Positions 2,272 through 25,139 of a DNA stretch of 25,213 nt are shown piece by piece. The stretch is from IMG/VR virus record IMGVR_UViG_3300021197_000925, positions 1 to 25,213 of that record; one strand, 5' to 3'. How positions within the stretch are numbered: position 1 is the first letter of the stretch; each line of letters opens with the position of its first letter. The notes below the pieces were generated by a model. That model searched no databases and had not been told where the DNA came from. It saw only the letters and a list, made by a program, of their open reading frames with translations. Source of the DNA: a virus. The position numbers and the translations under genes were made by a program.

Positions 2272-3862
2272 ATCCTGTGAACGATCCAAATATGGGCATT
2301 GGTGTTATCTCACTGGTCCTGTCAGTCCATTTTTCAAATATCTTAGGGTCAAAATCCGCCAACACTTTCATCATACGAGTCATTAATAAACACGAGCTGA
2401 CTAGGTCATCATGCTGTCCCGGTTTTGCTTTGAAACTCATGCCACTGGCCACAAAGTCCTTTAACTCTGATATAAGCAGTTGTGAATTGATCTTCATCTT
2501 GTTGTTCTCCACAAGTTCTTTGAATTTTGTACAAGCATCGATCTTGTGTTTTGCTGTGGTGTTGAATCCTCTCCTAAACTTACGCCTGTGTCCTTTCCTT
2601 ATTGGCTCTGACAGGAACATGCCCATTATGTTTTCTTCACCTATGTCCATCACTCTTAACAGGGCGGCCTCGCCTAGCGAGTTATTCTCCATGGAGTAGA
2701 ATATCTGTGGTGTAGCAGATGCATCTTTCTCCATGATTGCTTCATGTAGATGTTTTGTAATACTTTGCAGGATTCTTACCTGTTGATTCATTGGCGTTGT
2801 GTTGTGATGCCATTCTCCCACTTGCTCAAATGTGGGCAACTCAAAAACTTGTATTGCGGCGTAGTCACCGCCCGTTCCCATACTAGGATCTAAAGATACC
2901 ATGTAGGTCATTCCTGGTGTTGGACGTTTGAACCAACGCACCTGTCCTGTCGTCTCTACAGGGGCCGCGGCCTCCATGTCTGCCAAATGTATACTGTCTA
3001 TGAGTGTTTCATCAAAGATCAAGAATTCACATTCGTGTTCCCTTCTGAATCTCTCATCACCGATCCTGGCCTTTTCCGCTTCGGCCCACTCTTCGTTCCT
3101 GTCTGGGTGTTCTGACCAGTGTGCCTTCATGGCGTAGAACCCATTGGTTCCTATCAGTTTGTCATTGCCATACTCGTCGAATCTCTTGTTTGCTTCCTTC
3201 CAGATCAATGCGAACTGGTCTTCGTCACTGTTGGGTGTGCTTGTGATCATGCACTTACCACCTGTACTCAATGTTGGAGACAGTGATGTCCAGAACTCTT
3301 TGGCCTTCTCCGGTGGTTGCACGAATGCGAACTCATCACAATAGATTAGCGTAAGTGACATACCCCGTCCTGTGTTCTCTGTTGTTGTGGTCGCCATTAT
3401 CTTTGATCCGTTGTCGAATTCTATACTGTTCCTGTTGTACTGTGTGACACCTGCCTTGATCCAACTGGGCAACATCTCATAGGCATAACGCACCCTTGAC
3501 ATGATGTCTGATGCTCCTGCGTATTTGTGTGCCGCGATTAGTATCTGTGAATCTGGTCTGAACATTGCATACCATATTAGGAAGCCAGAGGCACAAGTGG
3601 TCTTGCCCGTCTGCCTAGGTAACATGGCGATCGAGAATCTGTGATCGTTATAACTGTTGATCAGTCTCTCTTGGTATGGGAACGGTTGGAATGGCATTGA
3701 TCCTTTGACCGGGTGCTGTATCTTCATGAATGTTTTCATAAAGAACAATGGTCCGGTTTTGGTATCCATGCATTTCTCAAGTTGTTCTACTTGTGTCTTG
3801 CTGTATTTGTGTTTCTTGTGCGCCTTCTTTATTTGGTCGCTATCTAATGATACATACGCCAT
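2270..3862 (-). CDS. 17: Terminase large subunit, T4 gp17-like (530 aa)
   Basis: This is the ATPase-nuclease motor that packages DNA into proheads and cuts the concatemer. The ATPase domain shows Walker A LPRQTGKTT at residues 81-89, Walker B LTLIYCDEF at about 171-179 with D176 and E177 as the acid pair, and a coupling motif TSTP at about 207-210. The nuclease domain begins near residue 318; MVSLDPSMGTGGDYA supplies D325 and D333 of the RNase H-like acidic cluster. The length is slightly shorter than T4 gp17 (610 aa). In T4, gp16 and gp17 are adjacent; here two unknown genes (198 and 473 aa) lie between them. The start ATG at 3862 has TTAAATA seven nt upstream and no Shine-Dalgarno. No motif residue appears lost, so the enzyme should be active. 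Confidence 0.97.
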   Translation of the reverse strand: MAYVSLDSDQIKKAHKKHKYSKTQVEQLEKCMDTKTGPLFFMKTFMKIQHPVKGSMPFQPFPYQERLINSYNDHRFSIAMLPRQTGKTTCASGFLIWYAMFRPDSQILIAAHKYAGASDIMSRVRYAYEMLPSWIKAGVTQYNRNSIEFDNGSKIMATTTTENTGRGMSLTLIYCDEFAFVQPPEKAKEFWTSLSPTLSTGGKCMITSTPNSDEDQFALIWKEANKRFDEYGNDKLIGTNGFYAMKAHWSEHPDRNEEWAEAEKARIGDERFRREHECEFLIFDETLIDSIHLADMEAAAPVETTGQVRWFKRPTPGMTYMVSLDPSMGTGGDYAAIQVFELPTFEQVGEWHHNTTPMNQQVRILQSITKHLHEAIMEKDASATPQIFYSMENNSLGEAALLRVMDIGEENIMGMFLSEPIRKGHRRKFRRGFNTTAKHKIDACTKFKELVENNKMKINSQLLISELKDFVASGMSFKAKPGQHDDLVSSCLLMTRMMKVLADFDPKIFEKWTDRTSEITPMPIFGSFTG

Positions 3863-12400: not shown

Positions 12401-12815
12401 GGTCAAACCAGTATGTGCCATCTGTTGGTACTGCTGTCGGTGCCGAGGCACTTCCAACTAATTCTGCTGTGTCCACGTTCGCTCTTAGTACGTATGCTCT
12501 GTTGGCAACTCCCAAGAATGAGTAGGCCGCTTGTAAGCCGTATTCGTTCAGCTCATAACCATTTAGGCTGTTTCCTGATGCGTCCGTGTAGAATTTTGGA
12601 TCTCCAAAAGTCTCTGTTAATTCTCTCTGTGACGAGATCAAGTAAGCAGTGTTGGCGTTTGCAGTAGTTGTTCCTGTGGCCGTGCCGTCGCCTGCTCCGT
12701 TTGTCTTGTCCTGTGATGATGCTACTATGAATAAAGGTGTAGTACCCGCATCTGATGGTACGTAGAAACTCTCGTTTATTACTGAAACTTCTACTCCTGG
12801 TGATGTTAATGCCAT
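9402..12815 (-). CDS. 18: Contractile tail sheath protein, T4 gp18-like, greatly enlarged (1137 aa)
   Basis: This forms the contractile sheath around the gp19 tube. The N-terminus (LTSPGVEVSVINESF, residues 3-17) and the C-terminal region (about 735-1137) are sheath-like. The latter includes YPQGILLWNTRRSGYN, VKVNPITFFSGAGIVNFG, DRINVSRLAVYLR and FIFEPNDELTRNEIKGAVESF, ending with EFIYIPLRIKN. T4 gp18 is 659 aa; the extra length lies between about residues 110 and 720. That insert is Thr/Ser/Ala-rich and carries several copies of a short module, each with a DGTYWF-, NGSVWF-, DGTLWY- or NNDLWV-type core, near residues 124, 328, 584 and 634. These probably decorate the outer surface of the sheath. 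A Shine-Dalgarno AAGGAGA precedes ATG 12815 and AATAAATA lies about 40 nt upstream. Confidence 0.93.
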   Translation of the reverse strand: MALTSPGVEVSVINESFYVPSDAGTTPLFIVASSQDKTNGAGDGTATGTTTANANTAYLISSQRELTETFGDPKFYTDASGNSLNGYELNEYGLQAAYSFLGVANRAYVLRANVDTAELVGSASAPTAVPTDGTYWFDLASSSYGLFEWSQTNQSFTTITPTLITSTSDLVGGVSTGAPKTSIGVIGDYAINTTHVTNKIYKKTASNTWVQVGSTDWHASLPVVSIASGTTVTSGNTMFINGTSISAGGTALSDVNTAIGSNVTNVTSAINSTTGNLEIFHNGKALGDSTGGTNTIRFEEGNGTLVADLGLTSNKVLNGVQLLQDKHTNRPTWKTADENRPNGSVWFKTTSANSGAALVAKLYSTASGSFSTVASPLYATHNSAIYNLDAATGGTALSTGTVYAQYNVTEESMTAADAADATPNLADFQFFRYEGGATTITSNTTSPTFTSSDTFKIQESVKNQEALNSAVTVTLGGTGADDFIAAVNGAGLTNVSATKTTAGAIVMTHKLGGEFRMTEEGMTGTPLTDAGFSATTAHSYGTYTANSSTLIDNLYDLPTGESLDSSANTGILASNWKRLSYTASTSAPTNEPADGTLWYHTSTDEADIMAHNGTTWVGYATAYATTDPNGPQFSATAPTTQSDATALVNNDLWVDTSDLENYPKLYKYNTSATLSSTNTANQVAVTTSGAAWELVDKADQTTEDGIVFADARLHTAADKADTLSTGGAGTSSSIKDLLSDGFLDPDAPNPDLYPQGILLWNTRRSGYNVKEYKNNYITTTKYPGSGSSGLGNIRQSNESVATYFPDRWVTKSSNNADGSGSFGRKAQRKVIVEQLKSEIDTNQAIREDQRGYNVIAVPGYPELIQNMINLNTDRNNTAFVVGDTPFRLEGTSTAIQNWANNTASALDNGEDGLISASDYLGVFYPSGLTTDNTGKSIVVPPSHMMMRTLANNDNIAFPWFAPSGTRRGVVDNATSVGYIDTASGEFQTISVTESVRDSMHEVKVNPITFFSGAGIVNFGNLTKTSASSALDRINVSRLAVYLRTQLDAIAKPFIFEPNDELTRNEIKGAVESFLLELTGQRALYDFLVVCDDTNNTPTRIDRNELYVDIAIEPIKSVEFIYIPLRIKNTGEIAKLGN

Positions 12816-12824
12816 TTTTCGTAT

Positions 12825-12831
12825 TCTCCTT
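12825..12831 (-). promoter_or_regulatory. Strong ribosome-binding site of gp18
   Basis: AAGGAGA, 9 nt before the ATG. It is among the clearest Shine-Dalgarno sequences in the window and contrasts with the many starts that have none. Confidence 0.8.
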
Positions 12832-12854
12832 GCAAGTTACGTATATACTAGAGT

Positions 12855-12862
12855 TATTTATT
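12855..12862 (-). promoter_or_regulatory. Late-promoter-like box before gp18
   Basis: AATAAATA about 40 nt upstream of ATG 12815, leaving room for a normal leader with a Shine-Dalgarno. It is followed by TCTAGTATATACGTAA, a 16-mer that recurs with one mismatch near 25045-25060. Confidence 0.65.
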
Positions 12863-12919
12863 CAATCGTATGGTTTTTACGACAGAATTTACCGTTTTCC
12901 AGGTACCTATATAGGTGAC

Positions 12920-12926
12920 GTAAATA
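12920..12926 (+). promoter_or_regulatory. Late-promoter-like box before the zinc/HNH-like gene
   Basis: GTAAATA, spacer CACAC (5 nt), then ATG 12932. It has the same geometry as the minus-strand starts, and no Shine-Dalgarno is present. Confidence 0.5.
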
Positions 12927-12931
12927 CACAC

Positions 12932-13291
12932 ATGCAGTACAATGACAGACCTTTGTGTACGGAGTGTAAGACCAAACCTAGAGCCTATGCTTACAAAAGA
13001 TATGGCAGGGTTTACTGGCGTAGTTGCTGTGACACCTGTATCAGGAAAAAAGCCGGTAAGCGAGTGGGAGGCGTGACAGCACTGCAAAGATCTGGATATA
13101 AAAAGAAAAATAAGTGTGAACTTTGTGGTTTCAAAGCACAGGCCAAAGCACAACTAGATGTGCTGTTTGTGGATGGAAATCTGAGGAATACTAGTGTCAG
13201 TAATCTAAAAACTGTTTGCGCCAATTGCCAAAGGTTGGCCAGCACTCGTAGACTCGGATGGCGTGTTGGTGATCTTGTCGCTGACGATTAG
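12932..13291 (+). CDS. Small zinc-binding HNH-like protein lacking the catalytic histidines (119 aa)
   Basis: There are four Cys pairs or clusters: C9-C12, C32/C33-C36, C62-C65 and C96-C99, which could form two zinc sites. The C-terminal half has the layout of a cysteine-type HNH domain (KCELCGF...LDVLFVDGN...NLKTVCANCQR). In active HNH enzymes of this type the core is VDHIDGN and the last knuckle CxNCH; here the core is VLFVDGN (77-83) and the knuckle is CANCQ (96-100). Both expected histidines are replaced, so nuclease activity is unlikely and DNA or RNA binding is more likely. The open frame extends upstream to 12755, but I prefer ATG 12932 because GTAAATA is five nt before it and upstream sequence overlaps gp18. 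The 3' end overlaps the convergent kinase gene by 87 nt. Confidence 0.8.
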   Translation: MQYNDRPLCTECKTKPRAYAYKRYGRVYWRSCCDTCIRKKAGKRVGGVTALQRSGYKKKNKCELCGFKAQAKAQLDVLFVDGNLRNTSVSNLKTVCANCQRLASTRRLGWRVGDLVADD

Positions 13292-24465: not shown

Positions 24466-24473
24466 TATTTATG
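24466..24473 (-). promoter_or_regulatory. Late-promoter-like box before the 82-aa gene
   Basis: CATAAATA, spacer CTAGCAA (7 nt), then ATG 24458. Confidence 0.55.
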
Positions 24474-24522: not shown

Positions 24523-24957
24523 TTAGATTGTGTCGATTGAACCAACGCCAGAGTTTGCACCCTCGTCAGTACCTTCTGCTAACAACGAGTACTTCACTGA
24601 ACCTGTAGTACCACCTGCTTCTTTGTAGTGTACAGTGTTGTTGAAGATCTTAGCCGCGTAAGCAACCGTAGAGTCATCCAATATGATCTGTATACAGAAC
24701 TGTCCGTTCGTAAGTGAACCCGTAGCAACCGGTGTAAGATCTAAGACTTGTGTAAGTCTTGTTGATCCATCCGCTGATAGGAAATTCACTTTGTATCTAG
24801 TACTTGATCTCTGAGATACGATGTAGTTTCCCGAAGCAGTTGACACCGCCTCTGCACCTGTTCCGTCTGGTTGAACTGTTCCTGTAGCAAACGCACCAGT
24901 GACTTCGAAGTCTCCTGCTGTGTTTCCAAATCTACTTGATTTTACTGGTCTTCCCAT
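24523..24957 (-). CDS. Probable abundant virion structural protein (144 aa)
   Basis: It is predicted all-beta, with MGRPVKSSRFGN at the N-terminus, IVSQRSSTRYKVNFL (about 48-62), FCIQIILDDSTVAYAAKIFNN (quoted in two halves, about 88-108) and a Gly-rich C-terminus. The pattern of VSQRS.TRYKV and a late AAKIFNN matches a small protein family I recall from marine T4-like phages, probably capsid decoration or tail-associated; I cannot choose. It has the best Shine-Dalgarno in the window (AAGGAGA), its own late box and a long structured leader, which argue for high and controlled expression. It ends 20 nt before a strong hairpin, so it is likely monocistronic. Confidence 0.8.
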   Translation of the reverse strand: MGRPVKSSRFGNTAGDFEVTGAFATGTVQPDGTGAEAVSTASGNYIVSQRSSTRYKVNFLSADGSTRLTQVLDLTPVATGSLTNGQFCIQIILDDSTVAYAAKIFNNTVHYKEAGGTTGSVKYSLLAEGTDEGANSGVGSIDTI

Positions 24958-25058
24958 TTTGTTTTCTCCTTCTATGGAGCCAAATGTGAGTTCTACTCAC
25001 TACGCGGTTTAATCCGCATAAGTCCAACTGTAAATTTGTTGGCTCTGTTGACTGTTTG
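24958..25058 (-). promoter_or_regulatory. Structured 5' leader of the 144-aa gene (candidate cis-regulatory RNA)
   Basis: About 100 nt of untranslated leader. Three local stems are visible: GTGAG/CTCAC (24986-25000), GCGG/CCGC (25004-25017) and CCAAC/GTTGG (25024-25042). In addition, GAGCCAA (24977-24983) pairs with TTGGCTC (25039-25045), a 7-bp stem that encloses the others but cannot coexist with CCAAC/GTTGG. When that outer stem is open, CTCC (24976-24979) can pair with GGAG of the Shine-Dalgarno (24966-24969). No known riboswitch class was recognised. Confidence 0.45.
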
Positions 25059-25066
25059 TATTTATT
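25059..25066 (-). promoter_or_regulatory. Late-promoter-like box for the 144-aa gene
   Basis: AATAAATA about 100 nt upstream of ATG 24957, the longest leader in the window. Confidence 0.6.
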
Positions 25067-25096: not shown

Positions 25097-25139
25097 AAGG
25101 GTGATGCGACACAATCCATAAATTAATCACACCACCCTT
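25097..25139 (-). terminator. Probable terminator of the gene upstream (outside the window)
   Basis: AAGGGTG (25097-25103) pairs with CACCCTT (25133-25139). On the minus strand the 3' arm runs into CCCTTTTTC. The loop is long (29 nt), so it is weaker than the other terminators. Confidence 0.5.

Follow-up and report, generated by a model that had tools for sequence, protein, structure and literature searches.

A freshwater-2 RNA leader upstream of the MGRP gene of uncultured T4-like phages

The DNA analysed here (the window) is a stretch of 25,213 nt that makes up positions 1 to 25,213 of the IMG/VR virus record IMGVR_UViG_3300021197_000925. A gene for a 144-aa protein, termed MGRP, lies on its minus strand and is preceded by a structured leader, in which a first-pass annotation had drawn several stems. 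All of these stems were found on the minus strand, in the leader before the ATG at 24957 (Table 1), and the leader's fold is much more stable than those of dinucleotide shuffles of its sequence (−30.8 versus −16.3 ± 2.75 kcal/mol; z −5.3, matched by 0 of 200). The elements are confirmed as drawn. Further upstream, a terminator-like hairpin probably closes the capsid transcription unit that would lie beyond the end of the window.

Table 1. Positions of the leader, its parts and the neighbouring features in the window
Feature	Position	Strand	Remarks
Leader RNA	24958..25053	-	From the predicted +1 at 25053 (T4 rule: 5 nt past box) to the base preceding ATG
Rfam RF02980 freshwater-2 RNA	24955..25043	-	69.3 bits, E 6.8e-9, full model 1-84
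P0 5' arm AGUCAA, conserved closing stem	25048..25053	-	Partner 24983-24978; homologous columns 96.2% of cells paired
P0 3' arm UUGGCU	24978..24983	-	Overlaps the first-pass arm 24983-24977
Alternative closing arm GAGCCAA (first pass)	25039..25045	-	Partner TTGGCTC 24983-24977; encloses 69 nt
P1 hairpin CCAAC/GUUGG	25024..25042	-	Arms 25042-25038/25028-25024; 131/133 leaders long enough (among matches listed), 89 distinct arm pairs
P2 hairpin UAUGCGG/CCGCGUA	25001..25020	-	Arms 25020-25014/25007-25001, hold GCGG/CCGC; near-invariant
P3 hairpin GUGAG-UAGAA-CUCAC	24986..25000	-	Arms 25000-24996/24990-24986; 4 pairs with two-sided changes
Shine-Dalgarno hairpin CUCC-AUAGAA-GGAG	24966..24979	-	CUCC 24979-24976 faces GGAG 24969-24966; 6-nt loop
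144-aa MGRP protein gene	24523..24957	-	ATG at 24957; leader at 103/103 protein-derived homologous loci
TAAATA, T4-type late promoter box	25059..25064	-	132/133 relatives (among matches listed)
Intrinsic terminator-like hairpin, then UUUUUC	25097..25139	-	Fold −22.3 kcal/mol, z −4.5, 0/200 shuffles

The leader is a member of a known RNA family, freshwater-2 (Rfam RF02980, cis-regulatory), which it matches in an Rfam scan well above the gathering score of 49.9 bits; the first-pass annotation, which had recognised no known riboswitch class, had passed over this family. The match is full-length, and in the RF02980 alignment of the window P1, P2 and P3 follow in order, directly upstream of the Shine-Dalgarno sequence and start codon; P1-P2-P3, the UAGAAC loop, the Shine-Dalgarno sequence and the AUG all fall within the model. 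The family consensus differs in having neither the closing stem P0 nor the Shine-Dalgarno hairpin, both of which occur in the window's clade. Among 46 contigs searched, the model matched 45 (34 above the cut-off, 11 under the gathering threshold) and none of the controls. Rfam annotates a cis-regulatory role, and the position of the leader would support action in cis. One published study reportedly describes the family; in the literature available for searching, no paper that names freshwater-2 RNA or RF02980 was found, and no functional study of it. The glutamine riboswitch family (glnA and Downstream-peptide motif) of cyanobacteria and cyanophages is similar in being a structured RNA upstream of a small protein in T4-like aquatic phages, but its conserved core is unlike that of the window leader, and it was not matched in the Rfam scan of the latter.

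Relatives were collected in two ways. A search of IMG/VR with the P2 pattern gave at least 142 matches, 133 of them also with the P3 loop; the 9 of 142 listed loci that lack the UAGAAC loop were rejected as chance hits, as was locus L143. A protein homology search, independent of the RNA, yielded 21 loci in a first round and 80 in a second. This search cannot favour the RNA, because its query was the protein, and the leader was present at every protein-derived locus examined, the window and locus L144 included. About 150 distinct leaders from IMG/VR were analysed in all, and alignment A4 was built from 50 distinct leaders in the clade to which the gene belongs. Searches of isolated phages with tblastn found no homologue of the 144-aa protein; one blastn search with the leader gave matches in Mycobacterium and Gordonia phages, which are unrelated and were rejected as chance, and another gave none, so that no isolate with the leader or the protein was found by these searches. 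The gp17, gp18 and gp23 proteins are closest to those of jumbo T4-like phages (PA5oct group, Atu_ph07, Phosso, GAP32). Five genomes that share these genes (PA5oct, Vibrio 2.275.O, Phosso, GAP32 and Atu_ph07) gave no RF02980 score above the cut-off, their weak scores equalling those of control genomes, and the genes after gp23 are unrelated in the four regions read from such isolates.

The three hairpins of the core change in different ways. P1 was missed by RNAalifold on alignment A3, owing to variable loops, and was therefore counted by script; it is present in nearly all leaders (Table 1) versus 38% of shuffled 5' regions. P3 has its two-sided changes in the broad set and in the 144-aa clade alike, and its loop, (U/G)AGAAC, is nearly invariant. 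In P2, whose flanking U and G are also conserved, CGG/CCG is replaced by the compensated CAG/CUG in 7 leaders and by CUG/CAG in 1, and a G-U form occurs in a single leader (L258). By these patterns of change, P1 is selected for shape, P3 for shape and loop, and P2 also for sequence, a combination typical of a recognition core. A pseudoknot between GAAC of the P3 loop and a 5' GUUC was inconsistent in the window (which has AGUC) and was dropped without a statistical test.

The promoter and gene order around the leader are just as regular. In phage T4, about one helical turn separates the late TATA box from the start that follows it (PMC2988020), and a late transcription unit of this type would be expected to have a TATAAATA-like box at that distance. 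In 132 of 133 leaders (among the matches listed; about 1.3% expected per leader by chance), TAAATA is found at 18-48 nt before P2. The surrounding sequence in relatives, mostly GATAAATAC or AATAAATAC, is that of a T4-like late box, with GA or AA in most cases before TAAATA and AA in the window. TAAATA is strand-biased in the window, with 16 copies on the minus strand, in most cases shortly before a late gene, versus 2 on the plus strand; minus-strand copies at 24471, 22746, 19348, 14066, 12860, 9394, 6470, 5934, 3875 and 2269 stand 7-73 nt before most late genes. Most of the other late-gene leaders in the window are short, unlike the 96-nt leader studied here. Since T4 late promoters have this geometry, we infer that +1 is the A of AGUCAA at 25053. 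In relatives whose contigs extend far enough, the leader is preceded by gp20-gp21-gp22-gp23, usually with gp23 (major capsid) directly before it; gp23 lies upstream on the same strand at 101 of 135 loci, the rest being mostly short or rearranged. Given the late box, the terminator and the placing of gp23, the leader would begin a transcription unit of its own immediately behind the capsid genes. Contigs of up to 176 kb carry one copy each, apart from L008, which has a tandem pair.

Behind 130 of 133 leaders (among the matches listed) the gene starts with M[G/A]RP, and 196 of 201 proteins behind the leader start with MGRP itself, at lengths from 109 to 512 aa. These proteins form one single-linkage family, even after the first 12 residues are dropped, and share a conserved basic N-terminus, MGRPx[KN][KSR]. 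Profile searches of PHROGs, Pfam and PDB gave nothing significant with a function, and an AlphaFold2 model (pLDDT 70) matched no PDB fold; its matches in BFVD are uncharacterised phage proteins only, two of them from Atu_ph07. The protein had been described as looking like an abundant virion protein. No homologue of known function was found, and the label of virion protein is a guess that comes from the gene neighbourhood, not from homology. What is new is that the freshwater-2 RNA is tied to a fixed place: behind a late promoter box, after gp23, before one protein family and in single copy. For an orphan candidate RNA, this fixed place provides a concrete hypothesis of function and a protein with which to test it.

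Two further elements set the window's clade apart. The closing stem P0 uses the predicted first bases of the leader and in the majority type reads AGUUCAA/UUGGACU (A4); each arm in the window is 1 base shorter, which is consistent with the loss of one base pair. P0 is compatible with P1 and, save for 1-2 nt, with the Shine-Dalgarno hairpin. Support for P0 is moderate, because its changes in A4 are one-sided only and two-sided covariation is absent. Among 53 distinct leaders that belong to this gene family, four (L164, L175, L176 and L214) lack a convincing closing stem, and L164, L175 and L176 lack the anti-Shine-Dalgarno sequence as well. In the second element, CUCC(U) or CUCU faces GGAG across variable loops in the clade's 49 leaders of types A-C, as expected from the earlier proposal that the Shine-Dalgarno sequence is sequestered in one state. 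Computed access to the Shine-Dalgarno sequence has a median of 0.03 with the anti-Shine-Dalgarno sequence versus 0.22 without it, and this predicted low access supports translational damping. Many other family members carry no anti-Shine-Dalgarno sequence, some of them also no P0 and P1, and the Shine-Dalgarno hairpin therefore cannot be the universal mode of control in the family. The strong covariation and the Shine-Dalgarno sequence within a hairpin in the window's clade bear out the idea that a late gene of the phage has a structured cis leader here.

The leader probably acts in cis on a late gene of virion type, and its most probable role is to control (or stabilise) the late MGRP mRNA by way of a factor that recognises P2/P3. 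More specifically, we lean towards a model in which the late MGRP mRNA of a T4-like phage begins with the freshwater-2 leader, which is recognised by a factor and tunes MGRP output. Transcription would start at the conserved AGU(U)CAA, and P2 together with the UAGAAC loop of P3 would be the surface that a trans-acting factor recognises; for this factor, a protein of the phage or host is likelier than a small molecule. Within the clade with mainly 144-aa proteins, P0 and the Shine-Dalgarno hairpin would keep the start region compact and ribosome access low, and binding or unfolding at the core could then tune the amount of MGRP protein late in infection.

A 5' element that stabilises or processes an abundant late mRNA, rather than a sensor, is a possible but rather unlikely alternative. 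Selection of P1 for pairing and not for sequence would suit such an element, as would the start of the RNA near the predicted +1 and its single copy per genome before a late gene beside the capsid gene. However, P2 and the UAGAAC loop are conserved beyond what a stabilising hairpin needs, and the leaders of the window's other late genes are short and plain.

Several phage genes, such as T4 gp32 and RegA, are translationally autoregulated via their mRNA leaders. The window leader resembles these systems in that a gene of a T4-like phage has structure close to its ribosome site, but differs in that no known operator sequence was identified in it. We regard it as doubtful that the MGRP protein binds its own leader. 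Leader and MGRP start go together throughout about 200 distinct leaders and at all of the protein-found loci, and the basic N-terminus points the same way, but such co-occurrence is equally expected for any orthologous gene with any leader. In addition, no RNA-binding fold was recognised in MGRP by profile, PDB sequence or fold searches, and one leader, in L008, serves a protein that starts MGNALK. The narrower version, in which MGRP binds the P2/UAGAAC core of its own mRNA and thereby links its production to the assembly of the capsid, is more doubtful still; if true, the MGRP-leader pair would be a capsid-linked feedback circuit kept across a large group of uncultured T4-like phages.

Similarly improbable is the translational switch of the first-pass annotation, in which the stem GAGCCAA/UUGGCUC alternates with P1 plus the CUCC/GGAG hairpin. 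The two states are nearly isoenergetic in the window (−23.9 kcal/mol closed and −25.2 kcal/mol with the Shine-Dalgarno sequence blocked, 1.3 apart), and GAGCC/GGCUC is common to the window subclade and subclade C, where its 3' arm overlaps the anti-Shine-Dalgarno sequence. The earlier annotation had missed a third fold at −24.8 kcal/mol, which combines P1, AGUCAA/UUGGCU (5 bp) and a 3-bp Shine-Dalgarno hairpin. Comparison of relatives counts against a switch: most relatives that carry the same gene do not conserve the 7-bp stem, whose columns pair in only 55.7% of cells (A4, 50 relatives) versus 96.2% for P0, which is compatible with P1. The window subclade has the GAGCCAA arm, and subclade C (L136, L144, L207, L218 and L223), which closes with CAGAGC(C/U)/GGCUCUG, has it in a shifted position; the stem is mostly private to the window's subclade. 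L164 retains GAGCC and P1 without the partner arm and without the anti-Shine-Dalgarno sequence. Because closing stem, P1 and Shine-Dalgarno hairpin coexist in the minimum-energy fold of the majority type A, exclusivity of the states is a trait of the window's small subclade and partly of subclade C, not of the family, and an obligatory two-state switch is not supported. A two-state switch that is plausible in one sequence can thus fail once relatives are compared. A small-molecule riboswitch is very unlikely, for despite a compact conserved core just before the ribosome site, the sole gene served is not metabolic and riboswitches usually control ligand-linked genes.

Some individual leaders depart from these types. 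In L164, L175 and L176, homologues of the 144-aa gene stand behind a different, shorter leader type, which suggests exchange of leaders between phage lineages. Another subclade (L006, L015, L037, L050, L096 and similar) has an invariant CGGACUUCU before the Shine-Dalgarno sequence, replaced by GGGCUUCU in L088; here the ribosome site could be covered in a second way, by pairing of CUUC with GGAG and of GGAC with GUCC in codons 3-4. L008 carries two freshwater-2 leaders in tandem (1428-1515 and 3148-3232), each with one gene, and it is the first, with a compensated P2 (GCAG/CUGC), that precedes the protein starting MGNALK instead of MGRP. L144 (NZHE01000016.1) is filed under the Rickettsiales MAG MED657 but looks like T4-like phage DNA, with gp20-gp23-like genes, an MGRP gene and a fibre-like gene; a binning error or a hint of the host is probable. 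Finally, the window contains at 12755-13291 (+) a 178-aa ORF, without a Pfam match, that runs opposite to its neighbours and carries CxxC pairs and a pattern like that of HNH-type nucleases.
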